Positions 14,020-35,816 of a stretch of DNA of 41,717 nt are shown one piece after another. A program made the position numbers and the translations under genes. Position 1 is the first letter of the stretch. Each line of letters begins with the position of its first letter. The DNA comes from Pricia antarctica (lineage in GTDB: Bacteria > Bacteroidota > Bacteroidia > Flavobacteriales > Flavobacteriaceae). The DNA lies in contig DRGL01000033.1 in assembly GCA_011050085.1 (NCBI GenBank), positions 1 to 41,717 of the forward strand. Direction: 5' to 3'. The notes below the pieces were generated by a model that made no database searches, was not told where the DNA came from, and worked only from the letters and a program-made list of their open reading frames with translations.

Positions 14020-14502
14020 ATCAGATAATTTACGTTTCACTTTTAGGGCATAACTAACTATACTGATTTCGAGGTGATGTTCAGTTGATGTCGAAGAAAA
14101 GAGTCTCTTCATGACCCTCCGAAGGCTTCACTTCAGACTACTTTTGGCTTTATGATTACCGCCCACGGCTTGCTATATTCTGCTCGTCCAACAATAGGAA
14201 AGGGTATTAATTGCAGTCTGTTTCACGTTTAAATGAAGTGCAAACTGACAATAGCTATAGTTGAAGAATAAAGCTATTATCATTTTGAGTATTGCTATCA
14301 GGTACCGAAAAAAAATAGAACTAAGTTTCCGCATTCTTAAAAAGCTTAAAAAATCGTAAGTGATAACCATACCGAAAAGCTGGAGAAAAGTCTATTTACG
14401 ACTATACATTACAAATAGCGAAAGCACATTTTGACAAGTGTTTCAATTCCGAAATTTTAGATGACCATATCAATTATTTTAAACCACTCAAAACCAATTA
14501 CT
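14020..14502. other. Non-coding leader upstream of susC
   Basis: About 480 bp with no gene I can support. It must hold the promoter of the susC operon unless transcription comes from further upstream, but I could not find a good Bacteroidota TTTG/TAnnTTTG promoter pair. A 65-codon frame on the - strand (14173-14370) has no recognisable content. Confidence 0.45.
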
Positions 14503-17500
14503 ATGATGAAGACTGTTTACCGTAATTTCATTTCGCGAATTAAGATTTCTAAAATCGGAATACCGATCTGTAGTAGCCTATTTTTCTTTCTTCTTTGCAT
14601 TGGCTCTTTTCCGGCTCTTGCTAGCACCCCCAACACTGGAGATAAAGCAATTAATCAACCATCTATTTCAAATGCCGGGTCAATCGCGGCTTCATTATAC
14701 CAGGAATTTAAGGTCACTGGAACGATAACCGATAATGAAGGTGTGCCCTTAGCTGGCGCAAGCGTTGTAGAAAAAGGAACTTCTAACGGCACGCAATCCG
14801 ACTTTGACGGAAACTATTCCCTAACGTTATCCGACCAAAATGCAGTATTAGTATTTACCTATCTCGGTTATGGCGTTGAGGAGGTTTCTTTAGATGGGCG
14901 AGACTTAGTTTCTGTATCATTAGAACAAAGTGCTTCGAACTTAGAGGAAGTTGTAGTTGTAGGGTATGGTACTCAATCTAGAAAGGATTTGACAGGTTCG
15001 GTAGGTGTAGTTGATGGAGCGGAGATTGAATCTAGAAGCACGACTAACATTTCTAATGCTCTACAAGGTTCCGTAGCAGGTGTGACTATTACTAGAAACG
15101 GTTCCCAACCAGGTGCAGGAAATAGTATTCTAGTGCGGGGAATAACAACCTTGGAAGGCAATGGATCACCTTTGATCTTGGTAGACAATGTTCCGGTTAA
15201 CAGTATTGATGATGTTAATCCCGATCAGGTAGAAAGCATATCGGTGCTTAAAGACGGTGCGGCCTCTGCAATATATGGTTCAAGGGCAGCGGCGGGTGTC
15301 ATAATCGTCACCACAAAAAGGGCCAAAGCTGGTGTTTTTAGTGTTGGTTATACTGGGGAAAATATTATAAATACTCCTACAGAAGTAAGAAGTACTGTAC
15401 GTGCTGTTCGCTATATGCAAATGGATAACGAAAAGTCGTGGAACGATAACGGTAATGATGACAACCAATTCCCCATATGGCCTGAAAATCTTATTTCAAA
15501 TTATCCAAGTTTAAGCGCCCAAAATCCAGATTTTAATCCTAATACGAACTGGAAGGATCTTATTTTAAAAAAATCTTCCACAGGATATCGTCACAATATC
15601 ACTTTGAGCGGGGGGACCGATAAAGTGAAAACTAACGTTAATTTAGGTTATGAGTATCAAGACGCCCTGTATGATCATAGAGATTGGAAGCGTTACACCA
15701 CAAGGGTGAATAACGACATTAAGATATCCGATAAGTTTGGTGGCAGTATTGACATTGCCTTTAAGTTGACCAAAGTTGATCAGCCTATTATAGACCCTAC
15801 CGGAGATGCAATAAATACTTCACCGCTTTATCCCGCCCTGTGGCAAGACGGTAGAATTTCTGACGGTTTAACAAATCCCTACGCACGAATACAGTTTGGT
15901 GGTTTTCAGGCAAGCGATAGCTATCTTTTTTATGGTATGGCCAGTGTTTATTATAAACCTATCGAAGATTTAAAGTTATCGTTGAACTTGGCTCCTAATT
16001 TTGAGTTTAACAAATATAAAAGGTTTAATAAAGCTATTCCATTTTGGGCGGCTGACGATCCTGAACGATTAAATCCTCCCGGATATGTTGGTGGACATAA
16101 TATTAACCAGATAGGTTTAATAGAGCAGAGAGTCAATAACAATACACTTACTACACAAGCATTGATTAATTATGATAAAGTTTTTGAAAGACACAGTGTC
16201 AGTGTGGTGATGGGATATGAAGAATTTTCAGCGAAATATGAGAATTTGAATGTTGAAGGTCAGCAATTCCTAAGTAACGACTACCCCTTTTTAAATCAAG
16301 CTCCATTAGATGGCGTTTTTGATAATGGTTCAAGTTATACAGATAATGCTTATGCCTCCTATTTTGGTAGGTTGGACTATAATTTTAATAATAAATATTA
16401 CGTACAGGGTACTATACGAGGTGATGGTTCTTCAAGATTTAGTAGCGATTATAGGTGGGGTACTTTTCCCTCTGTTTCTGCTGGGTGGGTGCTTTCAAAT
16501 GAGGGTTTTATGGAATCGCTTGACCCGACATTATCCTTTTTAAAGATTCGTGCTTCCTATGGGAGTTTGGGTAATGACCGATTGGGAAATTATCTTTACC
16601 AGTCTGTTTTGCAATTTGCCAATGGGTTAATTGCTAACGGTTCCGATGTAGAGGCGATACGAGCTGCGGCAGAACGTTATTTAGCCATTCAAGACGTTAC
16701 CTGGGAAACAACAATATCCCAAAATGTTGGTATTGACCTGAACTTGTTCAATGATAGGTTTTCTTTGATAGCTGATTATTACAAGAAAGAAACTACGGAT
16801 ATGTTGTTAGATTTGAGCATTCCGTCCATAAGTGGTTATGAAGATCCTACCTCTAATGTCGGAAGTATGAATACGGAAGGTTGGGAATTGTCTGCGTCCT
16901 GGCGTGATCAAATAGGTAAATTTAGATATTCTACTTCTTTCAATATATTCGATTCTAAGTCCACTATTGGTGATATTGGTGGCAAACGTCTTTTCGGTTT
17001 TGGTGGTAGATTTTTATCAGAAGAAGGAAGTCAGTATAGGTCTTGGTATGGGTACCAATCGGATGGAATATTTCAAACCCAAGCTGAGGTTGACGCCTCT
17101 GCCTTAACGAATGAAAATGTGGGTCCAGGAGATATAAAATACAGAGATATCAGTGGGCCGGATGATACTCCCGATGGAGTCATAAACGAATTTGATAGAA
17201 CGAACTTAGGAGGATCCTTACCTAGATATCAGTATGGGGGTACGATTAATTTAGGATATAAGAACTTTGATTTTGGGATTAGTTTTCAAGGTGTGGGCGA
17301 GCAAAAATTTTATTTGTCGCAGGATTTTATACGTCCCTTCTTAGCTACATATAGATCCCCATCTACCGTTTACGAAAACAATTACTGGAGTAACTACAAT
17401 ACCCCTCAGCAAAACCAAAATGCCAGATATCCGAGATTGACAGAAAACTCTGCCGGTAATAATTATGCATTTTCAGATCATTGGTTAGTTGATGGGTCAT

Positions 17501-17712
17501 ATTTTAGGATAAAAAATCTTACCGTAGGATATACGTTGCCATCTGATATCTTCGGAGGCGATAAAATTTCAAAATTACGGATATATCTGTCCGGGAATGA
17601 TATTTTTAAAATCGATAGTCTTATTAATGGACTTGATCCTGAACAAAATTTCGAAAGTAATGGATACCTGATTACACAATCTTTTATTTTAGGTTTAAAA
17701 GCAAATTTTTAA
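14503..17712 (+). CDS. susC: SusC-type TonB-dependent outer-membrane transporter
   Basis: 1069 residues from the ATG at 14503. An in-frame ATG at 14461 exists, but only the later start puts the basic n-region ('MMKTVYRNFISRIKISK') directly before the hydrophobic signal segment. Residues about 69-150 are a carboxypeptidase-regulatory-like domain ('VTGTITDNEGVPLAGASVVE'). The TonB-box/plug entry 'SNLEEVVVVGYGTQ' and plug motifs 'VRGITTLEGNGSPLILVDN' and 'SISVLKDGAASAIYGSRAA' follow. The rest is a long barrel ending in '-LGLKANF', with the C-terminal aromatic residue of outer-membrane proteins. It imports an oligosaccharide with the SusD partner encoded 10 bp downstream. The transported glycan cannot be read from sequence. 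Probably first gene of the core locus. Confidence 0.95.
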   Translation: MMKTVYRNFISRIKISKIGIPICSSLFFFLLCIGSFPALASTPNTGDKAINQPSISNAGSIAASLYQEFKVTGTITDNEGVPLAGASVVEKGTSNGTQSDFDGNYSLTLSDQNAVLVFTYLGYGVEEVSLDGRDLVSVSLEQSASNLEEVVVVGYGTQSRKDLTGSVGVVDGAEIESRSTTNISNALQGSVAGVTITRNGSQPGAGNSILVRGITTLEGNGSPLILVDNVPVNSIDDVNPDQVESISVLKDGAASAIYGSRAAAGVIIVTTKRAKAGVFSVGYTGENIINTPTEVRSTVRAVRYMQMDNEKSWNDNGNDDNQFPIWPENLISNYPSLSAQNPDFNPNTNWKDLILKKSSTGYRHNITLSGGTDKVKTNVNLGYEYQDALYDHRDWKRYTTRVNNDIKISDKFGGSIDIAFKLTKVDQPIIDPTGDAINTSPLYPALWQDGRISDGLTNPYARIQFGGFQASDSYLFYGMASVYYKPIEDLKLSLNLAPNFEFNKYKRFNKAIPFWAADDPERLNPPGYVGGHNINQIGLIEQRVNNNTLTTQALINYDKVFERHSVSVVMGYEEFSAKYENLNVEGQQFLSNDYPFLNQAPLDGVFDNGSSYTDNAYASYFGRLDYNFNNKYYVQGTIRGDGSSRFSSDYRWGTFPSVSAGWVLSNEGFMESLDPTLSFLKIRASYGSLGNDRLGNYLYQSVLQFANGLIANGSDVEAIRAAAERYLAIQDVTWETTISQNVGIDLNLFNDRFSLIADYYKKETTDMLLDLSIPSISGYEDPTSNVGSMNTEGWELSASWRDQIGKFRYSTSFNIFDSKSTIGDIGGKRLFGFGGRFLSEEGSQYRSWYGYQSDGIFQTQAEVDASALTNENVGPGDIKYRDISGPDDTPDGVINEFDRTNLGGSLPRYQYGGTINLGYKNFDFGISFQGVGEQKFYLSQDFIRPFLATYRSPSTVYENNYWSNYNTPQQNQNARYPRLTENSAGNNYAFSDHWLVDGSYFRIKNLTVGYTLPSDIFGGDKISKLRIYLSGNDIFKIDSLINGLDPEQNFESNGYLITQSFILGLKANF

Positions 17713-17722
17713 AATATAAGTC

Positions 17723-19489
17723 ATGAGAAAATATATAGTTAATAGCATACTATTTTTAGGGGTCGTAATGATAACTTTTTCCTGTACTAAATTAGATTTA
17801 GTCCAGCAAGATGCGGCGAATTCTGAAAACTGGTATCAGACATCAGATCAATTCAGACAATCCATAAATGAAGGCTACCGTGAAATCTTATGGCCTGAAG
17901 ATGTATCTATGGGCGGAAACGGTGGATGGACTGATGATTGGTTAAGACGGGATATACTTGATGATATAACTGCAGGTACGGTTACATCAGAGTATGGCCG
18001 GTCCAATGATAGCTGGGATCTTGAATATAAGGCTATTACCAGAATGCTAACGGTTTTGGAAGAGATTGAAAATCAAAACGGTGTGCTGTTCGAAGAGGAG
18101 GAGATTGGTTTCAAGGCGGAAATCAACTTTTTAAGGGCTTCCTATTGGTCTTATCTTATATCACATTTTGGTGATGTACCATTTTTCGAGAGGGTCCTTA
18201 GCATAGATGAATCCTTTGAGCTGCCACGTACCGATAAGAATGAAATTTTGCAGAAAATTTACTCCTATTATGACGATGCAGCCTTAAATTTGCCTATCAC
18301 CCGAAATGGACCTAAATATGTGACCAAGGGAGCAGCCTATGCTATGAAAGCTAGAATTGCACTCTATATGGGCGATTTTGAGACATCAGCAAACGCTTCC
18401 AAAGCTTGCATGGATTTAGGAATTTACGAGCTATATCCTGATTTTGCAGAATTATTCAAATCTTCAACCAAGAATTCTGTAGAAACAATCTTCCATATAC
18501 CGAGGAGTGAAGCGAATAACGTGCTCCGTCCTGATAACTTAAGGGATTTTCTTCCTAAAATTTATAACGGTTATGCTGCAAAACAACCTACGTGGAGGTT
18601 GTTGGCCGCTTTTGAATGTATTGATGGGCTTCCCATTGATGAATCTCCATTATTTGACCCTCGAAATCCTTTCAAAAATAGAGATCCTAGATGCGCTATG
18701 ACTATTGTACCCTTTGGGTCTTTAACAGAAGGTGACGGTAAAACTTCGGCCGATGGTTCCAACTATTATGGCATAGAATATACCCCACACCCTCAAAAAA
18801 AGCAAATTATGAATTTTTCTGATAATACCCTTATTAGAAATCCCGATACACGTTCCCTTGAAAGATTTGCCTCGTTCAATGGGTTAGTTTGGAATAAGGG
18901 CACTTCGGAAGACTGGTTAGACCTACGTACAGATCCTGATTACCTGATCATGCGGTATGCAGACGTTTTATTGATGTATGCAGAATCAAAAATAGAACTT
19001 AACCAGATTGATGAGAGCGTCTTGGGTGCCATTAATGCAGTACGAGATCGTGCTTATGCAGGTTCAGGTATTGAAAACCCGGCAATAGCCACTACAAATC
19101 AAGATGAATTAAGATTAAAGGTGAGAAATGAACGGCGTATGGAACTGGCATTTGAAGGACGCAGATATATGGATCTTATTCGTTGGCGTTTAGCAGAGAA
19201 GGCGCTCTCTACCCCTATAGTAGGCATGGTGATTGTCAATACAGATGGTGAGGTAACTCAACCTGCAACTGGTGCATTGATAGATAATGTAGTTAATCCA
19301 GGTTTATGGTTTTGGGGTTTGACCCCAGAAATAGACGAAGATGGTCTACCTGATTTCACCGCATTATTAAATGCGGGACTTGCTCAAACGGTCAATATTA
19401 GAAATTTTCCAGAACGTCAATACCTGTGGCCTATTCCAGCCGAAGACAGGTTATTGAACCCCAATTTGACACAGAACGAAGGATATTAA
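17723..19489 (+). CDS. susD: SusD/RagB-family surface glycan-binding lipoprotein
   Basis: 588 residues with signal 'FLGVVMITFSCTKLDLV' (lipidated Cys21). Features of the SusD family are the helical TPR-like N-terminal half ('EINFLRASYWSYLISHFGDV') and the C-terminal signature 'RRMELAFEGRRYMDLIRW', with the ending '-YLWPIPAEDRLLNPNLTQN' that almost every SusD carries. It forms the lid on the SusC transporter and binds glycan at the cell surface. The 10-bp spacing from susC and the stem-loop 44 bp after the stop suggest that the two genes form the most highly expressed transcript of the locus. Confidence 0.95.
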   Translation: MRKYIVNSILFLGVVMITFSCTKLDLVQQDAANSENWYQTSDQFRQSINEGYREILWPEDVSMGGNGGWTDDWLRRDILDDITAGTVTSEYGRSNDSWDLEYKAITRMLTVLEEIENQNGVLFEEEEIGFKAEINFLRASYWSYLISHFGDVPFFERVLSIDESFELPRTDKNEILQKIYSYYDDAALNLPITRNGPKYVTKGAAYAMKARIALYMGDFETSANASKACMDLGIYELYPDFAELFKSSTKNSVETIFHIPRSEANNVLRPDNLRDFLPKIYNGYAAKQPTWRLLAAFECIDGLPIDESPLFDPRNPFKNRDPRCAMTIVPFGSLTEGDGKTSADGSNYYGIEYTPHPQKKQIMNFSDNTLIRNPDTRSLERFASFNGLVWNKGTSEDWLDLRTDPDYLIMRYADVLLMYAESKIELNQIDESVLGAINAVRDRAYAGSGIENPAIATTNQDELRLKVRNERRMELAFEGRRYMDLIRWRLAEKALSTPIVGMVIVNTDGEVTQPATGALIDNVVNPGLWFWGLTPEIDEDGLPDFTALLNAGLAQTVNIRNFPERQYLWPIPAEDRLLNPNLTQNEGY

Positions 19490-19811
19490 ATAATGAAATT
19501 GAAGCTAGTTGTTTGAGTTAGTTGAGTTGAGAAATCCCCGAAATTAATACTTCGGGGATTATCTTCTGTTAAATTTTTTTATATCCCATATTTTATTTTG
19601 TTGCACGAACGTACTCATCAAAAAAATACCAATAGTAAATTAATTTGGTAAAACTCGAATCATATCTTTAAGTATTAGATGAAATTATACATAGTTGCGA
19701 TTTGATATTTTTAATGCAACGTCAAAATAAATACGAGATACTACCTATTTCACTGTTCGTATTGAAATATTGGGATTATGCTGATTTTTTATAGATAATC
19801 CAGGTTGTAAA
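19490..19811. other. Intergenic region susD to FMN-protein gene
   Basis: About 320 bp. Besides the stem-loop at 19533-19560 it contains a TTGAG-rich tract (19514-19530) before the hairpin and very AT-rich DNA after it, which may hold a promoter for the next operon. No gene is seen. Confidence 0.5.
19533..19580 (+). terminator. Stem-loop terminator after susD
   Basis: A perfect 10-bp inverted repeat, AATCCCCGAA (19533-19542) and TTCGGGGATT (19551-19560), with an 8-base loop, followed at 19574 by a run of seven T. The T-run begins 13 bases after the stem, longer than in a textbook intrinsic terminator, so it may be a partial terminator or an RNA-stabilising 3' end of the susCD message. Confidence 0.7.
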
Positions 19812-20924
19812 TTGAAAAGACAACTACATATCTTCGGAATGATTTTAAGTTCAGCTGTGCTATGGTTTGGCATGTCTGCTTTAGGATACACCCATAAAAA
19901 AGAAAGAAGTCAAAAAGTATTTACCGCTTATTTAAAGGATTCGGTGGAAGTAGAGGTGTACTTGGTGTACGATGAAAGGGAAGTGCCCTTAAAATACTTC
20001 AGTCATATCAAGTCGCCCGTTTGCGAAGAAGGAATTTGTTATGAGCTGATTGTTGACCTTCATTGGGATGTTTTAGGTCACTTTTTGGAATACAGAGAAG
20101 AGCCCAAAAATCCGTTTACCAAATTCGACCATATAAGATTTTCCGAATCGGACCACCAAAAATTAAAAAGTATATTGGCCGATAAAACTTCTTTACTGGC
20201 CAACTATGATGCGGAGGAATTGGTGGACACCGAGATTGAAATACAATCGGATATTATCGACGCAGTTACCGGTGCCACATACCAATCTTTAAAGGGAGCA
20301 GTAGTTCCCGGAGCCGTCTATAGCTCCCATACTTTATGGCATATAGTGAACGATAATATCTCAGATCAAATCATGGAACACACGGAATCCGTGATGAACG
20401 ACCCACTGTTGATTTCCTTGTTAGAATCAAAGAGGTATAATTTGCAGCTCTACGCCTTAAAAAAAGTGGATTTCAAAATTGATAAATATGTTCCTTACGT
20501 TTTTAGATTGATTTCCGAAGGTGAATCCTACGTTCCGTATTTTGCTATCGAAAAAATACCTCAAGAGATATGGGCTAGTACAATATATCAAGAAAAATCT
20601 ATTCGACTTTTGGAAAAAGTGGAGTTTAAATTGCAAAATGAAATACTAGGCAAATTGCAACACAATTCTATAAGCGATTCTTCTTTGAGATTACTGACGA
20701 CCAAGATAAATGTTCTTGATAAAAACCAAATCGAAAAGGTGTTTCAAATTCTGTATGCCAATAAAGATAAACTTACCCGTAACTCGATTGATGAAATCGC
20801 TTCTCTTCTATCTTCTGATGAAATATTAATTTCGACTTCGGCCTATGACTTACTCAAAAAAGTCGGTCTTCAATATAAGCACATAGTAATTGAACTAAAG
20901 GAATATAAATATAAAACTAAATAA
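19812..20924 (+). CDS. Putative periplasmic FMN-binding (flavinylation-motif) protein with helical-repeat C-terminus
   Basis: 370 residues, apparently starting at TTG (19812); an ATG at 19839 would shorten the signal region. Residues 8-26 are hydrophobic (signal peptide or anchor). The key feature is 'DIIDAVTGATYQS' (residues 147-159): it fits the D-x-x-[ST]-G-A-T motif of NqrC/RnfG-type FMN-binding domains, in which ApbE attaches FMN to the last Thr, here Thr156. Two cysteines ('CEEGIC', 71 and 76) could form a disulfide. Residues about 190-370 look like HEAT-type helical repeats. It ends 7 bp before the Tat-exported FAD oxidoreductase at 20932, suggesting the two work together, perhaps as an electron acceptor and a dehydrogenase. 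The FMN attachment is an inference from the motif; no ApbE gene is in the window. Confidence 0.6.
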   Translation: MKRQLHIFGMILSSAVLWFGMSALGYTHKKERSQKVFTAYLKDSVEVEVYLVYDEREVPLKYFSHIKSPVCEEGICYELIVDLHWDVLGHFLEYREEPKNPFTKFDHIRFSESDHQKLKSILADKTSLLANYDAEELVDTEIEIQSDIIDAVTGATYQSLKGAVVPGAVYSSHTLWHIVNDNISDQIMEHTESVMNDPLLISLLESKRYNLQLYALKKVDFKIDKYVPYVFRLISEGESYVPYFAIEKIPQEIWASTIYQEKSIRLLEKVEFKLQNEILGKLQHNSISDSSLRLLTTKINVLDKNQIEKVFQILYANKDKLTRNSIDEIASLLSSDEILISTSAYDLLKKVGLQYKHIVIELKEYKYKTK

Positions 20925-20931
20925 AATCACA

Positions 20932-22866
20932 ATGTCAAAACGAAGAGATTTTATGAAAGCGCTTGGAATTGGCTCGGGCGCTTTCTTTATGAGTCCAATT
21001 ACTGTCTTTGGCGAAAGCCATGAAGATGGACGGGATTGTGACCGAAGAAAATCGGGGTTACCAAATGGCGAATTGACAGAGAAATTAAATGTTTACGAAA
21101 AAAAAGAATATCATACCGATATAGTAATTTCGGGAGGTGGCATGGCGGGCCTCTGTGCTGCAATAGCGGCTGCTAGAAATGGTAGTAAGGTTATTCTTTT
21201 ACAGGATAGGTCTAGGTTGGGCGGCAACGCCAGTAGCGAAATACGAATGCATATTTCAGGCGCAAGCCAACTGAAACAGGTTTGGAGGGAAACAGGTATC
21301 CTCGAGGAGCTAGTGCTTACGGAAGCAGCCGAGAATCCACAACGGTCATATGAAATGTGGGACTATGTCTTGTACGACAAGGTGGTGTCCGAAGAAAACA
21401 TCACTCTGTTGCTTGACACCACCTTGTACGATGCCGAGGTTGTCGACGGAAAAGTTGAAAAAGCATGGGCTATTTGTTCTCCTACGGAAGAAATATCAAT
21501 TATCAAAGCAAAGTTTTTCGCCGATTGCACTGGTGACGCGACCATGGCAGCCAAAGTAGGCGCATCATACATGAGAGGGAGGGAAGCTAAATCGAAATGG
21601 GGGGAATCGCTTGCAGTAGATGTAGCCGATCAAAAAACCATGGGAAACAGCCTGTTGTTCATGGCGAAACAATTCGATAAAGAAATGCCGTATACCCCGC
21701 CCGAATGGTCTAGAAAGTATACTACAAAAGATTTTATCCATCGAGGGATTGCCAATTATGAATACGGATATTGGTGGCTTGAACTAGGTGGGCAAATTAA
21801 TATTATAAGGGATGGCCAACAGAATAGGCACGACTTGTTGAGCGTTCTTTTTGGTGTTTGGGATTACATCAAAAATTCTGGCAATCATCCCGATTCAGAA
21901 AAATGGGCCCTTACTTGGGTGGGGATGATTCCTGGTAAACGTGAAAGCAGAAGGATAGAAGGAGATTTCATAATGAAGCAGAAAGATGTGCAATCTGCAA
22001 CCCTTTTCACTGATAGGGTCGCTTATGGAGGCTGGCCTTTAGACGACCACCCGCCAGGAGGTATGGATACCACAGGAGATGTTCCATATGTATCCATTCC
22101 TTTGAAAGAGCCGTATTCAATACCATTAAGATCACTTTACAGCAAGAATATAAAAAACCTTTTCGCCGCAGGTCGTAATATCAGTGTTTCACATGTTGCC
22201 CTATCGTCTACACGCGTAATGGCCACTTGTTCTACATTGGGCCAAGCTATTGGCACCGCTATGGCCTATTGTAATCAACATAGTATACTACCCGCAATGT
22301 TAGTAAATGATGTGGCTCATATGACCACCCTTCAACAATTATTGCTTAGACAAGACCAAGCGCTACTAGGCATTATAAATGATGACAAAAGCGATTTGGC
22401 CAAAATTGCACAAATTAGTGCTTCCTCAGAGACAAAAGATGGTGCAGCGAACAATATTATAGACGGGATCAATAGAGATGTAAATGACGGTAAAACGCAT
22501 CAGTGGCGAGCTAATATGGAAGCTGGAGAGCAATGGCTTGAATTAGTCTGGGATTCACCCATGGCAATAAATAAAATTGAGCTAACATTCGACACAGGAC
22601 TACACCGATATTTACGTATCTCAGGTCAAGATTCAGTTAATGATCAACAGGAGAGAGGGCCGCAACCTGAAACCATTGCTGACTATACCATTGTTGCCAA
22701 AGGGAAAAATATTAACGGTGTAGTTGCCGAAAACAAAAATAATTTTTTAAGAAAAGTGGTACATGATTTTGAAAGTGTTGAGGTAAGTTCTTTACAAATG
22801 AGAGTTGAAAGAACTAATGGAGACCCATTTGCAAAGATTTTTGAAATAAGATGTTATAAAGAATAA
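20932..22866 (+). CDS. Tat-exported FAD-dependent oxidoreductase (FAD_oxidored family) with discoidin-like C-terminus
   Basis: 644 residues. N-terminal twin-arginine signal ('SKRRDFMKALGIGSG'), so it should be folded with its cofactor before export. The Rossmann dinucleotide motif 'VISGGGMAGLCAAIAAA' (about 65-81) is followed by 'RLGGNASSEIR', typical of the PF12831 group. Further conserved segments are 'WVGMIPGKRESRRIEGDF' and 'LFAAGRNISVSHVALSSTR' (second FAD-contacting stretch). From about residue 490 there is a discoidin/F5-8-like beta-sandwich ('WLELVWDSPMAINKIELTF'), likely to bind carbohydrate. It probably oxidises a sugar or glycan in the periplasm. It has a paralogue at 31888 and follows the putative FMN protein by 7 bp. 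Substrate unknown. Confidence 0.82.
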   Translation: MSKRRDFMKALGIGSGAFFMSPITVFGESHEDGRDCDRRKSGLPNGELTEKLNVYEKKEYHTDIVISGGGMAGLCAAIAAARNGSKVILLQDRSRLGGNASSEIRMHISGASQLKQVWRETGILEELVLTEAAENPQRSYEMWDYVLYDKVVSEENITLLLDTTLYDAEVVDGKVEKAWAICSPTEEISIIKAKFFADCTGDATMAAKVGASYMRGREAKSKWGESLAVDVADQKTMGNSLLFMAKQFDKEMPYTPPEWSRKYTTKDFIHRGIANYEYGYWWLELGGQINIIRDGQQNRHDLLSVLFGVWDYIKNSGNHPDSEKWALTWVGMIPGKRESRRIEGDFIMKQKDVQSATLFTDRVAYGGWPLDDHPPGGMDTTGDVPYVSIPLKEPYSIPLRSLYSKNIKNLFAAGRNISVSHVALSSTRVMATCSTLGQAIGTAMAYCNQHSILPAMLVNDVAHMTTLQQLLLRQDQALLGIINDDKSDLAKIAQISASSETKDGAANNIIDGINRDVNDGKTHQWRANMEAGEQWLELVWDSPMAINKIELTFDTGLHRYLRISGQDSVNDQQERGPQPETIADYTIVAKGKNINGVVAENKNNFLRKVVHDFESVEVSSLQMRVERTNGDPFAKIFEIRCYKE

Positions 22867-23371
22867 GTCTTAAAATATTTAATTTAATACGTTTTGAGTT
22901 TCTAGTGACCACTTCACTAATGTTCATGCTTTGATACCAAAAAGGTATACAATCGAAAAATTTTCATGCATAAAGCTTATTCAAAGCACAAATCCCCTTC
23001 TAGATTTTGAAAGCAAGCTTAAAATTACTCAAATGAACAAAGCTATCTACATCCTGATTATTGTTATTATTCTGTATAAAAACGATAAACTAACTTGTCA
23101 AAAGTTTTAAATAAGATTTGATATTTCTTGAAATTCTAAAATGGTACAACATTGTATTCCCGAAAGAATATTTCTCTAGTAGTACGACTTCCATAGCCTG
23201 AGTATTAAAAAATAGTTGCTATGTTAAGAATTTTGCGAGGGCCTTCGGAAGGATAAGAAATTTTGAAATGGCAACTCAGTTATAACAAAAAGAAAAAGGG
23301 TAAGCAATGGCTGAAACACTTCTATACAAGTGTTATTAACTGGTTACTTTATACCTCTTAAAGCAAATTTC
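22867..23371. other. Intergenic region before the NagA-like gene
   Basis: About 500 bp of AT-rich DNA with no gene that I can support on either strand. A short CCTTCGGAAGG palindrome lies near 23242-23252 but is not followed by a T-run. The region probably contains the promoter of the nagA-Nramp-nagB block. Confidence 0.45.
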
Positions 23372-24583
23372 ATGAAAATTGTTACATCGATAGTAGTTCT
23401 GTTTTTTTATATGATTGGGACGTCACAGACGAACGAAATGGCACAGTTAGAGGGAATACTTTACAAAGATCACTCATTGGTCTCTATCCAAACTTTTAAC
23501 GGAGATATTTCTAAGATAAATCGACTTTCGCAAAACGTGAAGGATTCTAGACCCTTTATTGCGCCAGGCTTGATTGACATTCAGATTAATGGCTTCGTAG
23601 GCGTAGATTTTTCTGGTCCCGACCTCACTGTTGAAGGTGTCAAAAAAGCCACGCAGGCTCTTTGGGAAGCAGGAGTTACATCGTATTTCCCAACGGTGAT
23701 CACCAGTGATTTTAATCGATTGAAAAAAAACTTTGCCGTACTGGCTGAAGCAAGAAAGGATCCTGAAATAGCATTATCTATACCTGGTTTTCACTTAGAA
23801 GGACCCTATATTTCACCGATTGCAGGCTTTCGTGGCGCCCATTTGGAAAAATACATTAAAAACCCGGATTGGAGCGAATTTCAGGAACTCCAAAGAGCGG
23901 CTGAAAACGGGATTAAATTAATTACAGTTGCTCCAGAACTTGTCGGGGCCATCCCTTTCATACGAAACTGTACGAATAGTGGAGTCATAGTTTCTCTCGG
24001 CCATCATAACGGTTCTGCCAGCGACGTGCAGTTTGCAGTAGATGCAGGTGCGCGAATGGTTACACACTTGGGCAATGGTTGTGCCAACGAGATTGACCGC
24101 CACCTCAATCCCCTTTGGCCCCAATTATCGGAAGACCGGATCCATATCAGTATTATTGCAGATGGGTTTCATCTGACCAAGGAAGAAGTACGTACATTTT
24201 ATAAGGTAAAAGGAGTGGAAAATACCATATTGGTCTCCGACGCCTTAGATTTAGCCGGCCTGCCTCCAGGAGAATATCGTCGTGGAGAACGTAAACTTTT
24301 ATTGACACAAGATGTAGTCAAACTGCCAAAGGAAAATGTTTTAGCTGGTGCCACATCCCCTATTAGCAAATGCGTTGGAGTGGTAATGGATTTTACCCAA
24401 TGTTCTTTACGGGACGCTATACAAATGGCAAGTAGCAATCCAGCACGAATGTTTTCGTTGGAAGACTTAGGGGATGTGGAGCAAGGTAAGAGAGCTGATT
24501 TGATACTTTTTACTATGGAAAATAACAAGATGGTGGTTAAAAAAACGTATATCCAAGGACAATTGGTCTATTCGCAGAAGTAA
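23372..24583 (+). CDS. Secreted N-acetylglucosamine-6-phosphate deacetylase-like amidohydrolase
   Basis: 403 residues from the ATG at 23372, chosen because it directly starts a signal peptide ('MKIVTSIVVLFFYMIGTSQ'); an earlier in-frame start at 23330 adds 14 residues without purpose. The NagA amidohydrolase pattern is complete: 'APGLIDIQINGFVGVDF', 'FHLEGPY' (metal ligand Glu143), 'LGHHNGS' (His211), 'THLGNG' (His232), 'IADGFH' (His267) and 'LVSDALDLAGLPPG' (catalytic Asp290). Classical NagA is cytosolic and deacetylates GlcNAc-6-phosphate. This one appears exported, where sugar phosphates are not expected, so its substrate is more likely an unphosphorylated N-acetyl amino sugar or a similar amide. 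The stop codon is 3 bp from the start of the transporter at 24587, implying coupled expression. Confidence 0.82.
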   Translation: MKIVTSIVVLFFYMIGTSQTNEMAQLEGILYKDHSLVSIQTFNGDISKINRLSQNVKDSRPFIAPGLIDIQINGFVGVDFSGPDLTVEGVKKATQALWEAGVTSYFPTVITSDFNRLKKNFAVLAEARKDPEIALSIPGFHLEGPYISPIAGFRGAHLEKYIKNPDWSEFQELQRAAENGIKLITVAPELVGAIPFIRNCTNSGVIVSLGHHNGSASDVQFAVDAGARMVTHLGNGCANEIDRHLNPLWPQLSEDRIHISIIADGFHLTKEEVRTFYKVKGVENTILVSDALDLAGLPPGEYRRGERKLLLTQDVVKLPKENVLAGATSPISKCVGVVMDFTQCSLRDAIQMASSNPARMFSLEDLGDVEQGKRADLILFTMENNKMVVKKTYIQGQLVYSQK

Positions 24584-30253: not shown

Positions 30254-31882
30254 ATGGATATAGTAGATTATATAGTGATTATCGTTTTTGCCTTGCTCAT
30301 CGTAGTTGCCGGAATGTCATTTGGCAGTCGCGGATCCGACATGAAGAGCTACTTTGCGGCCGGGGGTGCAGTCCCTTGGCCCATAAATGGACTATCGCTC
30401 TACATGAGTTTTTTTTCCGCGGGTACTTTTGTGGTTTGGGGATCGATTGCCTATCAGTTCGGATTGGTTGCTATTACCATTCAATCTGCAATATGCATTG
30501 CAGGTTTTTTAGTAGCCTATTATATTGCGCCAAGATGGAGAAAAACAAATGTTCTCACAGCGGCCGAGTTCGTCAGAAATAGGTTGGGTGCGAATACCCA
30601 AAAGTATTACACTTATATCATTCTGACCCTATCATTGGCCTATACAGGGGCGTTTTTGTATCCGGTAGCTAAAATAGTGAATGTTTCCACAGGGTGGCCG
30701 GTCGATTTATGTGTTGTAGGGCTTGGAATTCTTATATTGATGTATACCATTGTCGGGGGCTTATGGGCAGTAATTATTACAGATGTTCTACAATTCGTCA
30801 TACTTACCGCCGTGGTTGCAATTGTGGTTATTCTATCCTTAGAGGAGGTAGGAGGATTGGAGCGTCTGATAATCGACGCTCCCGAGAATTTTTGGAGCTG
30901 GTCGGTAGAAGAATACAGTTGGCCATTCATATTCGCTTTTACCATTTACAACATGATTTTTATCGGGGGCAACTGGGCCTATGTTCAGAGATATACTAGT
31001 GTAAAAACCCATCAGGATGCTAAAAAAGTTGGATTAACTTTTGGGTGGCTCTATTTGGTTAGCCCAATAATTTGGATGCTACCCCCTATGATATACAGGA
31101 TCCTAAATCCAGATTTATCCGGACTTGAAGTGGAGGAGGCCTATATGCTAATCTGCAAAAGAGTGCTTCCTGTGGGAATGCTCGGGCTTATGTTGGGCGG
31201 AATGGTCTTTGCAACGGCAAGTTCAGTCAATACAACCTTGAACATGGCAGCTTCCATAATTACCAATGATATATTTAAAGTTTTAAGACCAGCTGCAGGG
31301 CACAAACAAATTATGTTCGTGGCCAGGCTTTCAACCTTACTGTTTGGCGTAGGAACTATTGCGATTGCTTTATTGGTCCCTTTTTTAGGCGGAATCGTAA
31401 ACGTGGTGCTAAGTGTGGGGGCAGTAACAGGGTGCTCACTATACGGTCCCCCAATTTGGGCGTTGTTCTCAAAAAGAATTGCAGGAAGGGCCGTTCTAAT
31501 CATTACGTTCGTTTCCTTGGCAATAAATATAGGTACATTGTTGGCTCATCCACTAAACAGAGCTAACGAAATGCTATTGGGAGCGCTATCGCCCTTTTTT
31601 CTTTTGGCAGGATATGAAGTTTTTATGATTCTTCGCAAGGTAAAATCCGGCACTGATTATCAAAGCTATGAGAAAAGTCTATTGAGAGATTCCAAAGCGA
31701 AGGAAGAAGATTCCTCACAGAACGTCTATGGATTAAAAGTTTTATCTAATACTCTCTTGACCGTAAGTGTCCTCATAATAATTCTTGGGATAATTTCTTC
31801 GGGACATGGGCTATTAATTGCATCTACAGGGTTCATAATACTTGTTGTGGCCTTTTGTTTTCATCCATCGATAAAATTATAA
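30254..31882 (+). CDS. Sodium:solute symporter (SSS family)
   Basis: 542 residues with about 13 transmembrane helices. N-terminal pattern of SSS proteins: 'DYIVIIVFALLIVVAGMSFG', 'SDMKSYFAAGGAVPWPINGL', 'SLYMSFFSAGTFVVWGS', and the family hallmark 'YTIVGGLWAVIITDVLQFVI'. It moves a small solute, presumably a monosaccharide or modified sugar released by the GH31 enzyme encoded 6 bp upstream, into the cytoplasm with Na+. Its stop is 5 bp before the start of the cytosolic FAD oxidoreductase, so glycosidase, importer and oxidoreductase form a tight three-gene unit. Confidence 0.9.
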   Translation: MDIVDYIVIIVFALLIVVAGMSFGSRGSDMKSYFAAGGAVPWPINGLSLYMSFFSAGTFVVWGSIAYQFGLVAITIQSAICIAGFLVAYYIAPRWRKTNVLTAAEFVRNRLGANTQKYYTYIILTLSLAYTGAFLYPVAKIVNVSTGWPVDLCVVGLGILILMYTIVGGLWAVIITDVLQFVILTAVVAIVVILSLEEVGGLERLIIDAPENFWSWSVEEYSWPFIFAFTIYNMIFIGGNWAYVQRYTSVKTHQDAKKVGLTFGWLYLVSPIIWMLPPMIYRILNPDLSGLEVEEAYMLICKRVLPVGMLGLMLGGMVFATASSVNTTLNMAASIITNDIFKVLRPAAGHKQIMFVARLSTLLFGVGTIAIALLVPFLGGIVNVVLSVGAVTGCSLYGPPIWALFSKRIAGRAVLIITFVSLAINIGTLLAHPLNRANEMLLGALSPFFLLAGYEVFMILRKVKSGTDYQSYEKSLLRDSKAKEEDSSQNVYGLKVLSNTLLTVSVLIIILGIISSGHGLLIASTGFIILVVAFCFHPSIKL

Positions 31883-31887
31883 TTTAT

Positions 31888-34170
31888 ATGATCAAAAAAG
31901 GACTGGAAAACCATAGAGATACCAAAGTCGAGAATATAGAATCGGACCTGGTGGTTGTCGGAGGAGGTCTGGCAGGCTTGTGCTCCGCCATTACCGCAGC
32001 GCGATCGGGATTACGGGTAACGTTGTTTCAAGATCGTCCGGTCCTTGGCGGAAATGCTTCATCCGAGGTACGCCTGTGGAGTCTAGGTGCAACTTCCCAT
32101 ATGGGGAACAATAACAGATGGAGCCGCGAAGGTGGGTTGATCAATGAAATACTTTTAGATAACCTAAAACGAAATAAGGATGGAAACCCGCTAATATTTG
32201 ATACGGTACTGCTTGAAAAGGCATATGAAGAACAGAATCTTAGGTTGCATTTAAATACAATGGTATATGAGGTTGGTAAAAAAGCCCACAACATAGAAAA
32301 CGTCACTGCCTTTTGTAGTCAAAACTCTACTACATATGTTGCTTCAGCACCCCTATTTTGTGATGCATCGGGTGATGGGATCATTGCGTTCTTATCTGGT
32401 GCACCATTCAGAATGGGTGCAGAGAACAAAGATGAATTTGAAGAAGGTTTTGCACCAAATGTTAAAGATTACGGTAATTTGCTCGGACACTCCCTTTATT
32501 TTTATACTAAAGATACTGGAAAGCCAATATCGTATACAGCGCCCTCATTTGCCATTAAAAATGCTAAAGAGTTGCCAAGAATAAAGAACTATCAACTTGC
32601 AGAGCACGGTTGTAAGCTGTGGTGGGTTGAATACGGTGGTAGATTGGATACTATTCACGAATCGGAAGATATAAAATTTGAGCTTTGGAAAGTTGTATAT
32701 GGAATTTGGGACTATGTGAAGAACAGCGGAGAGTTTCCAGAAGCTGAAAATCTGACCTTGGAATGGGTTGGAACTATTCCAGGAAAACGGGAAAGTAGGC
32801 GTTTTGAGGGAGATTTCATGCTTACTCAGAAAGATATTGTCGAGCAAAGACACCATGAGGATGCAGTGGCATTCGGAGGCTGGGCTATGGACCTTCACCC
32901 AGCCGACGGCATATACAGCGAACACAATTCTTGCACCCAATGGCATGGCAAAGGAGTCTATTCAATCCCCTATCGTTGCTATTACTCAAAAGGTATTAAC
33001 AATCTATTTCTAGCGGGTAGGATTATAAGCGCTTCCCATGTAGCCTTTGGTTCTTCACGAGTAATGCTAACCTGCGCACATGGTGCCCAAGCCGTAGGTA
33101 TGGCCGCCGCACTATGTGTCGAAAACAGCCTTTTACCCAAGGATATCGCTTTGCAGAAAAATATTGAAAAATTACAATTACGTCTTAATAGAGAAGGGCA
33201 AGGCATTCCCAGCGTTAAAATTACCGATCCCGAAGACCTTGCCCAGCTGGCAAAAATTTGCTGTAGTTCAACTTTGCAATTTAGCGGATTTGTACCCTCA
33301 GACGACTGGCAGGCTTTACATTTCGGTACCGCTCAAATACTGCCTCTAAGTGCAAACCAAGGATACGATTTTGAAATCGATGTAGATGCAAAGGAGAAAA
33401 CGTCGTTGAAAATTGAATTACGAGGCAGTTCAACAAGTGATCATTTCACTCCCGATATCATTGTAGATAAACAGGATTTACAATTGGAGAAAGGCAAGCA
33501 GAGAATTAAGTTTACCAACGAAGGAATGCTGCCACGAGACGGATATGGCTATTTGTGTCTATTACGGAATGAAAAGGTGAGTGTCAGGCTTTCCGATGAG
33601 CGCATTACCGGATTAATGACGGTTCAAAATAAAGTCAACAAAGCGGTTTCGAATTTCGGAAGGCAGGATCCGCCGAAAGATATCGGGATAGATAGTTTTG
33701 AATTTTGGACGCCGGAGCGAAGGCCTAAGGGAAAAAACTTTGGGCTTAGCATACAGGAAACCCTCTCGATTTTTGAGATTGGCAATCTATTAAACGGAAA
33801 GGTAAGGCCCGGAGCGAACGGTAGAACGAATGCATGGGTGGCGGCACGAAACGATGTGAATCCCACCGTAACCCTTACATGGGAAAACCCTGTAAACATA
33901 AATGAGATACGACTTTTTTTCGACTGTGATTACGACCACGCGCTCGAGAGCACGTTAATGGGCCATTCTGAAAATATCATTCCGTTTATTGTTGGAGATT
34001 TTCTCGTCAAGGATAGTTCGGGGAATATTTTGAAAGAAGTTACCGGTAATCATCAAGCAATGAATATTTTGAAATTCGACAGTACACTTTCTACGGATAA
34101 ATTGGTCTTTCAATTTTCAAAAGGAACGGAATATATCCCCGTTTCACTGTTCAAAATTTCGGTATTTTAA
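31888..34170 (+). CDS. Cytosolic FAD-dependent oxidoreductase (FAD_oxidored family), paralogue of 20932
   Basis: 760 residues from the ATG at 31888, 5 bp after the symporter stop; an upstream start at 31855 would overlap the symporter gene. No Sec or Tat signal, in contrast to its paralogue. FAD motif 'DLVVVGGGLAGLCSAITAA' (20-38) then 'VLGGNASSEVRLWSLGA'. Shared blocks with 20932 include 'WVGTIPGKRESRRFEGDF' and 'LFLAGRIISASHVAFGSSR'. Between about 460 and 600 there is an additional domain ('SNFGRQDPPKDIGIDSFEFW' lies at its end), and the C-terminus again looks like a discoidin-type sandwich ('VTLTWENPVNINEIRLFF'). It probably oxidises or epimerises the sugar imported by the symporter. Substrate unknown. 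Confidence 0.8.
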   Translation: MIKKGLENHRDTKVENIESDLVVVGGGLAGLCSAITAARSGLRVTLFQDRPVLGGNASSEVRLWSLGATSHMGNNNRWSREGGLINEILLDNLKRNKDGNPLIFDTVLLEKAYEEQNLRLHLNTMVYEVGKKAHNIENVTAFCSQNSTTYVASAPLFCDASGDGIIAFLSGAPFRMGAENKDEFEEGFAPNVKDYGNLLGHSLYFYTKDTGKPISYTAPSFAIKNAKELPRIKNYQLAEHGCKLWWVEYGGRLDTIHESEDIKFELWKVVYGIWDYVKNSGEFPEAENLTLEWVGTIPGKRESRRFEGDFMLTQKDIVEQRHHEDAVAFGGWAMDLHPADGIYSEHNSCTQWHGKGVYSIPYRCYYSKGINNLFLAGRIISASHVAFGSSRVMLTCAHGAQAVGMAAALCVENSLLPKDIALQKNIEKLQLRLNREGQGIPSVKITDPEDLAQLAKICCSSTLQFSGFVPSDDWQALHFGTAQILPLSANQGYDFEIDVDAKEKTSLKIELRGSSTSDHFTPDIIVDKQDLQLEKGKQRIKFTNEGMLPRDGYGYLCLLRNEKVSVRLSDERITGLMTVQNKVNKAVSNFGRQDPPKDIGIDSFEFWTPERRPKGKNFGLSIQETLSIFEIGNLLNGKVRPGANGRTNAWVAARNDVNPTVTLTWENPVNINEIRLFFDCDYDHALESTLMGHSENIIPFIVGDFLVKDSSGNILKEVTGNHQAMNILKFDSTLSTDKLVFQFSKGTEYIPVSLFKISVF

Positions 34171-34266: not shown

Positions 34267-35730
34267 ATGAAAAAGAATCTGAATTCAACGAAAAACTCAC
34301 GAAGGAATTTTGTGAAAAAAACCTCATTACTGGCAACCGGAATATCGATTGTTCCTCGTCATGTATTAGGGGGTTCCGGATTTACGGCGCCAAGCGATAA
34401 ATTGGTGATAGCCGGAATAGGTATCGGAGGCAAAGGTGAGGAGGATATAGCTAATTTGGCAAAATCCGGAAAAGCCAATATTGCATATCTGTGCGATGTA
34501 GATGACCGCAAGGCGGCAAATTCGGTAAAACGTTTTCCAAACGCCAAATTTTATAAAGATTGGCGCGAATTATTGGATAAAGAGGCTGATAGTTTTGATG
34601 CTGTATCTATTTCGACTCCAGATCATACCCATGCCGTAGCTACCATGGCTGCAATGAAAAGAGGAAAACATGTTTTTGTTCAAAAGCCATTGACCCACGA
34701 TATATATGAAGCCAGAAAATTGACGGAAGCCGCAAAAAAATATAAAGTTGTTACTCAGATGGGTAACCAAGGTTCATCTGGGGATGGGGTGCGTAAAATG
34801 AGAGAATGGTACAATGCGGGAGTAATAGGAAAAGCCCATACTGTTTATTGCTGGACCAATCGTCCAGTATGGCCTCAAGGGATATCATGGCCAACCAAAA
34901 AGGCAGAAGTTCCCAAGGAGCTCGACTGGGATCTATGGTTGGGTACCGCTCCATTCAAGAATTATGTAGATGGTCTTGTTCCCTTTAATTGGAGAGGTTG
35001 GTGGGATTATGGAACAGGGGCATTAGGCGATATGGGTTGCCATTTGATCGAACCCCCGTTTAGCGTACTTGATTTAAAATATCCCAAAGATGTACAATGT
35101 AGTGTGGGAAGCGTATATGTGGACTCATTCAAAAGAGGGTATTTCCCAGAAAGTATGCCGCCGTCAAGTCATGTGACCATGACCTTTCCAAAAACATCTC
35201 AAACAGATGATGATATCAAATTGCATTGGATGGATGGTGGAATTCAGCCTACACGGCCTGAAGAGCTAGGTCCAAATGAAGTTTTTGGTGATGGAGGTAA
35301 TGGTGCGCTGATTATCGGAACAAAAGGAAAGATGATGTGCGGAACCTATGGCAAAAACCCACAACTGCTACCTACTTCCAGAACTAATGAAATAAACGTA
35401 GCGCAGAAATTTGAAAGGGTACCTGACGGTGAAGAAGGCCATTATGCACAATGGGTAGATGCTGCTATTGCTGGATATGGAAACATGGAAGTGAGCTCTC
35501 CTTTCGAAATTGCCGGACCGCTAACCGAGACTTTGCTCATTGCCAATTTGGCCATTCGGGGATACGATATAAGAGATGAAAAGGAAAATAAGGACGGCAA
35601 AATTTATTACGAATATCCGGGTAGAAACATTGAAATGGTATGGGATGCGGAGAATATGCGCGTAACCAATCTTGAGGAAGCAAATAGCTATGTGAAACGT
35701 GAGTATAGAAAAGGTTGGACTTTAGATTAA
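34267..35730 (+). CDS. Tat-exported Gfo/Idh/MocA-family oxidoreductase
   Basis: 487 residues with twin-arginine motif 'SRRNFVKKTSLLATG' (from residue 11). Nucleotide-binding loop 'IAGIGIGGKGEEDIA' (48-62), then 'AVSISTPDHTHAVAT' and 'GKHVFVQKPLTHDIYEA' with the family Lys140 in the QKP version of EKP. The C-terminal substrate domain contains 'GALGDMGCHLIEPPF', whose His is a usual catalytic residue. Exported members of this family keep their NAD(P) bound and are thought to oxidise sugars at C3 or act by oxidation-hydrolysis-reduction. The next gene encodes a DUF1080 protein, the hydrolase that typically handles 3-keto-glycosides. Good family confidence; the reaction is inferred. Confidence 0.88.
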   Translation: MKKNLNSTKNSRRNFVKKTSLLATGISIVPRHVLGGSGFTAPSDKLVIAGIGIGGKGEEDIANLAKSGKANIAYLCDVDDRKAANSVKRFPNAKFYKDWRELLDKEADSFDAVSISTPDHTHAVATMAAMKRGKHVFVQKPLTHDIYEARKLTEAAKKYKVVTQMGNQGSSGDGVRKMREWYNAGVIGKAHTVYCWTNRPVWPQGISWPTKKAEVPKELDWDLWLGTAPFKNYVDGLVPFNWRGWWDYGTGALGDMGCHLIEPPFSVLDLKYPKDVQCSVGSVYVDSFKRGYFPESMPPSSHVTMTFPKTSQTDDDIKLHWMDGGIQPTRPEELGPNEVFGDGGNGALIIGTKGKMMCGTYGKNPQLLPTSRTNEINVAQKFERVPDGEEGHYAQWVDAAIAGYGNMEVSSPFEIAGPLTETLLIANLAIRGYDIRDEKENKDGKIYYEYPGRNIEMVWDAENMRVTNLEEANSYVKREYRKGWTLD

Positions 35731-35816
35731 AATTACCTCCCCAATCATGAAAGAACATTCGCAATTATGCCTCTGATATTTAAGTGTGCTTAACCTTAAT
35801 GAAGAAAACATCTAGT

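Follow-up and report, generated by a model that had tools for sequence, protein, structure and literature searches.

A conserved gene pair of Bacteroidota glycan loci joins a predicted ApbE-flavinylated solenoid protein to an exported FAD oxidoreductase

What is a protein with an ApbE-type flavinylation motif doing beside an exported oxidoreductase in a SusCD locus? The question is raised by a stretch of 41,717 nucleotides from Pricia antarctica (contig DRGL01000033.1 of assembly GCA_011050085.1; the whole stretch is called the window below). Here an open reading frame (ORF) of 370 amino acids with a TTG start (19812..20924, plus strand) ends 7 bp before a 644-residue ORF with an ATG start (20932..22866, plus strand), which encodes a predicted exported oxidoreductase of PF12831, dependent on flavin adenine dinucleotide (FAD). 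A preliminary description, which had correctly read both ORFs and their spacing, proposed a two-flavin periplasmic sugar dehydrogenase in which the first protein carries flavin mononucleotide (FMN) and acts as the electron outlet. In our reading, the pair is probably a module for electron transfer in the cell envelope, with the FAD enzyme oxidizing a sugar-derived substrate and the FMN partner passing the electrons towards the quinone pool. The comparative data support the near-obligate pairing, the conserved acceptor Thr, the link to ApbE and the export of the proteins; we infer the attachment of FMN to Thr156, the dehydrogenase direction of flow, the sugar substrate, the roles of the solenoid and tail domains and the route to the membrane.

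The comparison rests on a family of 100 distinct members. A first scan of the GTDB genome collection with the single protein as query found nothing, and a search with an alignment-derived pattern returned 105 relatives, of which 80 stretches were kept as loci. The pooled set held 105 family ORFs in 98 loci; dropping five identical copies left 100 distinct members, the window included, in 93 loci (the weak match L012 and the repeat fetches L001, L017-L019 and L026 were not used). Many members are closely related, e.g., those of Arenibacter and Zobellia, and the counts given below are therefore not counts of independent events.

The motif identified in the preliminary description, D150-A-V-T-G-A-T156 (20259..20279, plus strand), does end in residue Thr156, the predicted site of FMN attachment, and matches the published ApbE motif D-x-x-[S/T]-G-A-[S/T] (PMC12052999). 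A chance origin was considered and ruled out: D..[ST]GA[ST] turns up once when the window is scanned in all six frames, 9 of 20,000 shuffles of the protein contain it, and the Asp and the final Thr are present in all members. In the alignment of 100, D150, C76, W85, G89, F110 and T156 are invariant, C71, K104 and G154 are found in 99, A155 in 98, H107 in 95 and D106 in 91, and position 153 is occupied by Ser (43), Thr (35), Ala (20) or Val (2); 75 members carry a strict [ST]GAT. Of the two hydroxyl positions in the motif, the invariant one is that modified by ApbE, and constancy of Thr156 alongside variation at 153 is the pattern expected if Thr156 is the flavin acceptor. The pattern that fetched L028-L107 covered approximately residues 167-176, which biases the conservation seen there; residues 150-156 lie outside it, and the motif was thus not selected for. 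A loss of the Thr among homologues, which the preliminary description had named as a reason to abandon the idea, was seen in none of the 100 members. Taken together, family members very probably hold a covalently bound flavin, predicted from the alignment to sit on Thr156.

The pairing is nearly obligate. A PF12831-type gene on the same strand directly adjoins 97 of the 100 members, with a gap of at most 341 bp that exceeds 80 bp in two of them. The three exceptions are L048, which lies at a contig end, L025, whose FAD gene is found two genes upstream in a wider stretch of the locus (L132), and L011 (L133), which has none in the 18 kb read. The co-occurrence anticipated in the preliminary description is thereby borne out, a partner being present within the cluster in 98 of 99 testable members. 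Since members were found through the flavin protein and not through the FAD protein, the pairing is not a selection effect. The P. antarctica genome itself encodes one paralogue of the flavin protein (27% identity), which is also directly beside an FAD oxidoreductase, and two of the four PF12831 genes of this genome (E 1e-10) abut its two family members. Among 96 pairs, 67 are ordered FAD-FMN and 29 FMN-FAD, so the two genes have stayed neighbours despite rearrangement.

The two proteins also diverge together. In a Mantel test on 96 pairs (one of the 97 was omitted as a short FAD fragment), flavin-protein and FAD-protein distances correlate with r 0.83, a value to which shared species history contributes, and 999 permutations reach at most 0.16. 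Seven loci hold two pairs each; within such a locus the two flavin proteins have different residues at 70-80% of positions. For 7 of the 14 copies, the FAD partner of the closest relative elsewhere ranks first among the FAD proteins; for the remaining 7 it ranks second to fifth. These results bear on an explanation that we regard as distinctly improbable, namely that the FAD enzyme works alone as an oxidase using O2, with the FMN protein at its side for protection, scavenging or regulation. The reduced multi-FMN protein SaFMN3 can indeed use O2 as acceptor (PMC10339131), but both the pairing and the partner-matched divergence are strict for a dispensable helper. The partnerless member in L133 (7843-9652) is short, at 290 amino acids, and adjoins a small lipoprotein-like ORF with one CxxCH and no Pfam match.

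Flavinylation of Thr156 would require ApbE, and the gene for it lies inside the cluster in 6 of the 93 loci, in the orders FAD-ApbE-FMN (L132), FMN-FAD-ApbE (L137 and L107) and FMN-FAD-ApbE-FMN-FAD (three Dyadobacter loci, L080, L085 and L089). By chance, apbE would be expected within two genes of a member in approximately 0.19 loci, which gives P 0.016 for two or more and, if the events were independent, 6e-8 for six; the calculation uses a mean of approximately 2.4 matches to apbE in each genome (66 across the 28 genomes) and an assumed 4800 genes. At the genome level, the co-occurrence with ApbE that the preliminary description had suggested looking for is present in all 28 family genomes tested (16 from outside the titled loci and 12 of the 80 titled loci). 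The P. antarctica genome has two ApbE genes, one next to a PF04205 protein on another contig, among ORFs that by eye resemble an nqr operon, and one next to a DUF3570 gene; both copies are elsewhere in the genome, and the window protein would consequently need ApbE in trans. The genes near the window ORF include no Nqr or Rnf subunits, in agreement with the preliminary description, and we rejected the idea that the protein is itself a subunit of such a complex. In one genome, an ApbE-like stretch with nine internal stop codons (G054:C40:15923-16636) is apparently a decayed copy.

The AlphaFold2 model of the flavin protein (69 sequences, made up of the window protein and 68 of the 82 members listed) has a predicted local distance difference test score (pLDDT) of 93.8 and a predicted template modelling score of 0.85. 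A hydrophobic helix (residues 2-23) precedes a beta/alpha domain with the motif (approximately 30-180) and an alpha-solenoid (approximately 182-370). The domain opens with strands 32-40, 46-53, 59-72, 75-85 and 91-96 and helix 112-123, followed by short helices between 128 and 137, strands 138-145 and 152-156 and helices 158-163 and 169-180, and the model places Thr156 at the end of a strand, two residues before a helix. For NqrC, the minimal FMN scaffold is described as strands beta6-beta8 and, after them, helices G and H; two short helices and the strand pair 9-10 precede G. Helix G begins with the flavinylated Thr, and loops 6-7 and 8-E hold the flavin ring between them (PMC4348036). The elements of residues 30-180 follow the same order, in a comparison of order and not of coordinates. 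If this correspondence holds, the C71-x4-C76 hairpin (20022..20039, plus strand), conserved in the family, formed in the model and possibly closed by a disulfide, would fall on loop 6-7 at one edge of the FMN pocket, and K104, D106, H107 and F110 of the F102-T-K104-x-D106-H107-x-x-F110 loop (20115..20141, plus strand) on loop 8-E at the other, so that residues of the family's own would line the pocket. As for the HEAT-like repeats of the preliminary description, the model does form an alpha-solenoid from about residue 180, and the 50 of 805 Foldseek matches in the PDB that were listed for the whole model are nearly all HEAT or armadillo proteins, designed or natural (best E 7e-4, template modelling (TM) score approximately 0.3), but Pfam gives no repeat match at E 10. 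Foldseek against viral models returned nothing at E 0.001.

Does this fold make the family a branch of FMN_bind? The 370-residue protein itself matches nothing in Pfam or among PDB sequences at E 10 and nothing in NCBIfam at 0.01, and it scores 14.2 bits (genome search) or 13.5 bits (domain alone) against PF04205, for which the cut-off is 22. Profile comparison by hhalign gave 76% with 8 FMN_bind rows over 95 columns and 72% with 16 rows over 17 columns around the motif (8 and 16 being the rows usable out of 24 FMN_bind loci), compared with at most 0.61% for 15 control families. In a Pfam scan of 50 of the 100 member domains, PF04205 was the commonest family (16/50, best E 0.0032), and an FMN4 domain was the only flavoprotein among six PDB sequences matched. 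Homology to FMN_bind is nevertheless not supported by sequence, the signal in the Pfam, PDB-sequence and hhalign comparisons coming from the motif alone; with no similarity outside the motif, the family is not filed in PF04205. Of the FMN-binding fold expected in the preliminary description, the element order compatible with the NqrC scaffold is thus supported and the sequence homology is not. The lack of FMN_bind similarity beyond the motif, together with the 25 members that depart from strict [ST]GAT, would suit a protein in which the DxxTGAT stretch is unflavinylated and which serves the FAD enzyme as a structural accessory subunit with a solenoid; in view of the Asp150 and Thr156 retained by every member and the apbE genes within clusters, we find this explanation very improbable, slightly more so than the oxidase.

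Several observations weigh against the two-flavin module as we read it. In the model, the motif belongs to the less confident parts (block means 80-81), and the Foldseek result, dominated by the solenoid, compares the solenoid rather than residues 30-180. Masking the motif reduces the hhalign similarity to FMN_bind to 0.33%; an OB-domain family weakly matches 5 of the 50 scanned member domains (best E 0.053), and in the PDB sequence search the FMN4 domain (E 0.22) ranks third, behind two designed propeller proteins (E 0.026 and 0.082). Of the 25 members without strict [ST]GAT, most have Ala at 153, and one each reads GET, SAT and SGST. L011/L133 has no FAD partner across the 18 kb read. The six loci with a clustered apbE (three Dyadobacter, one Chitinophaga, G284 and G249) represent two or three lineages and not six independent events, and the contrast in ApbE content between the 28/28 family genomes and 64/119 genomes sampled from the class (Fisher 4e-7 without the P. 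antarctica genome), in itself in favour of the module, is confounded by kinship, all four genomes of the taxonomic family of P. antarctica visible in the class sample having ApbE. No cytochrome recurs near the pair, CxxCH being found in 7 of the 694 genes of the loci, and a c-type cytochrome as the general next carrier is accordingly unsupported.

Both proteins look exported in most members, as predicted from their N-termini. By a crude test, 87 of the 100 flavin proteins have a hydrophobic N-terminus, and the 97 FAD partners divide into 67 with a hydrophobic N-terminus, 16 that resemble twin-arginine translocation (Tat) signals and 14 with neither, 12 of the 14 being cut by the end of the locus; the labels are crude, and at least one Tat label (L088) is apparently wrong. 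The partner in the window begins MSKRRDFMK, Tat-like by eye. At an exported location, loosely bound FMN could be lost, which is the reason proposed for covalent attachment in NqrC (PMC4348036), and a covalently held FMN therefore fits; likewise, the glycan-degrading context fits an oxidizing FAD enzyme.

The match of the window's FAD partner to PF12831 is strong (271.7 bits, cut-off 27) and covers profile positions 1-413 of 416, and a PDB sequence search found no relative outside the nucleotide-binding part. The carbohydrate-binding-like tail noted in the preliminary description is in part upheld: the C-terminal domain, discoidin-like, matches PF24135/DUF7402 with 30.7 bits against a cut-off of 27, but its F5/8 type C match stays below threshold (18.4 versus 28.2), the relative in L057 lying above it at 29.4. 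The main rival to our reading is the reverse flow, in which the FMN protein takes in electrons derived from quinol and a substrate is reduced by the FAD enzyme. FrdA is the first Foldseek match of the FAD model, further FrdA/SdhA proteins and flavocytochrome c3 are among the 50 matches listed, and known enzymes containing FMN_bind are often respiratory reductases, e.g., of fumarate, urocanate or methacrylate (PMC8238504). However, the FAD model (built from the window protein and 48 of the 97 FAD ORFs listed) is weak, with a pLDDT of 76.5, and the listed matches, which also include flavin monooxygenases and geranylgeranyl reductases, have query TM scores of 0.2-0.3, indicating that they mostly show the common flavoprotein fold. 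Moreover, PF00890 matches over only approximately 37 residues, in contrast to the strong PF12831 match, and the recurring neighbours are genes of glycan uptake and hydrolysis. We therefore consider the reverse flow unlikely.

In the direction that we favour, the exported FAD enzyme, whose discoidin-like tail probably binds it to a glycan or oligosaccharide, would oxidize a sugar-derived substrate and pass the electrons to an FMN on Thr156 of its partner, attached there by ApbE, of which two copies are encoded elsewhere in the genome. The alpha-solenoid may provide a docking surface for the FAD enzyme, the next carrier or both, and the electrons would reach the quinone pool through that next carrier.

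The setting of the pair points to glycans. Within five genes of the members, the recurring neighbours across the 93 loci are CstA (26), SusD (26), sulfatase (22), SusC (20), SSF (17), glycoside hydrolase family 2 (14), an unnamed family (14) and Gfo/Idh (10), the names coming from a scan of one representative per cluster; since the flanks of 17 loci are short, these counts are lower bounds. Upstream of the pair in the window (14461-19489) are a SusC/RagA TonB-linked outer-membrane protein (14461..17712, plus strand; TIGR04056, 885 bits) and a SusD-family protein (17723..19489, plus strand; PF07980, 148 bits). Between SusD and the pair, a terminator-like hairpin lies at 19533-19560; the window has four such sites compared with 5.6 expected from shuffles, and the pair may or may not be transcribed separately from susCD. 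Downstream follow an amidohydrolase resembling N-acetylglucosamine-6-phosphate deacetylase, an Nramp transporter, a NagB-like protein, an M14 peptidase, a glycoside hydrolase of family 31, an SSF symporter, a second PF12831 enzyme, a Gfo/Idh oxidoreductase and a PF06439 protein. Across the loci, the pair has the look of a two-flavin unit that is exported, belongs to glycan loci and lacks a fixed partner in the membrane.

Comparison with known systems places the family near the FMN_bind proteins and outside them. Like NqrC, RnfG, NosR and PceC, it has a D-x-x-[S/T]-G-A-T motif, with the Thr in the model adjoining a helix after a three-stranded antiparallel sheet and short helices, and it is predicted to be exported and to be an ApbE substrate. 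Unlike these proteins, the window member falls below the PF04205 cut-off, carries a C-terminal alpha-solenoid and is not encoded with an Nqr or Rnf complex; where the family has the LTKxDHxxF loop and the C-x4-C hairpin, NqrC has a conserved Glu-Thr...Leu-Gly loop (PMC4348036). The fumarate and urocanate reductase-like flavoenzymes with an FMN-binding domain (PF00890 superfamily; PMC8238504) likewise combine an exported FAD enzyme with covalently bound FMN, which is predicted here, but the system of the window consists of two separate proteins, with a PF12831 enzyme, an alpha-solenoid and a setting in glycan loci. Also comparable are DUF2271 and DUF3570, ApbE substrates without an FMN_bind domain that cluster with apbE, as DUF3570 does elsewhere in the P. 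antarctica genome, and conserve [S/T]GA[S/T]; these are other domains, and their flavinylation was shown by co-expression (PMC8238504), in contrast to the prediction from sequence made here.

Outside supplements and most subscription papers, the literature searched listed no title or opening of an abstract that deals with such a flavin protein and an FAD oxidoreductase, in line with the preliminary description, and no paper whose text has both flavinylation and polysaccharide utilization. One paper, apparently a safety evaluation of a Bacteroides ovatus strain, mentions ApbE as well as polysaccharide utilization. The main texts of the flavinylation surveys PMC8238504 and PMC11334425 contain neither 'HEAT' nor 'polysaccharide'. 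The former survey started from an FMN-binding domain profile and orphan apbE genes, and such an approach could miss the family, given that the window member is below the profile cut-off and most members are away from apbE. What is known is thus extracytosolic flavin electron transfer of the ApbE type; what is new is the protein class, its partner and its setting. We judge the family to be a new class of predicted ApbE substrates that would serve as the electron outlet for the exported FAD dehydrogenases encoded in glycan loci. The PF12831 oxidoreductases of these loci thereby gain a candidate electron acceptor, and the pairing suggests a way to wire sugar oxidation outside the cytoplasm to the electron carriers of the cell. 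If the dehydrogenase direction is true, extracytoplasmic glycan oxidation linked to respiration joins the hydrolytic picture of these loci. A wider version, to which we give somewhat less than even credence, is that glycan loci of Bacteroidota hold a flavin-wired respiratory branch of their own, in which exported FAD dehydrogenases would oxidize sugars or oligosaccharides before they reach the cytoplasm and flavinylated solenoid proteins would carry the electrons to the quinone pool, a share of the polysaccharide's energy being gained in the envelope without nicotinamide adenine dinucleotide.

All 100 members are from Bacteroidota, by record title or by the phylum sample, and the titled loci belong to Flavobacteriaceae, Saprospiraceae, Lewinella, Cytophagales (e.g., Algoriphagus, Cyclobacterium and Dyadobacter), Prolixibacteraceae and Chitinophaga; the collection pattern was built from Bacteroidota members, and this is the distribution seen within a search derived from that phylum. 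The family is present in 10 of 99 genomes (the P. antarctica genome, counted among the 10, and 98 relatives), with no member in three other genomes of the genus, and in 9 of 392 sampled Bacteroidota genomes, again including its own; a plasmid search with the window protein gave no match. One member, in L079, is on a contig titled as a Thalassovita metagenome-assembled genome; the phylum-sample hits of that genome fall at the same places as in the Bacteroidota sample, and the title is probably wrong.

Other genes of these loci deserve mention. A CstA-like carbon-starvation transporter lies downstream of the member in 26 loci (e.g., L068, 11043-12785) and is the next gene in 20. In the window, the second PF12831 oxidoreductase adjoins the SSF symporter (31855-34170), and such a pair directly follows the flavin/FAD pair in L050, L064, L103 and L105, suggesting that several flavoenzymes may share one pathway. 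The Gfo/Idh/MocA oxidoreductase is followed by a gene resembling PF06439 3-keto-disaccharide hydrolases (34267-36650), a combination that recalls oxidative glycoside breakdown, where a Gfo/Idh/MocA enzyme such as DgpA acts before cleavage of the 3-oxo-glycoside; in the 92 other loci, however, Gfo/Idh-like genes are found in 10 and PF06439-like genes in 2, so this likeness does not extend to the flavin/FAD module in general, and a general link to PF06439 proteins is unsupported. The NagA-like amidohydrolase (23330-24583), which precedes the Nramp and NagB-like genes, has by eye a signal-peptide-like N-terminus, unusual for a deacetylase expected to be cytosolic. Finally, FG-GAP/UnbV_ASPIC proteins flank the locus on both sides (4325-5944 and 37558-39324), and relatives of these occur in 6 of the 92 other family loci.

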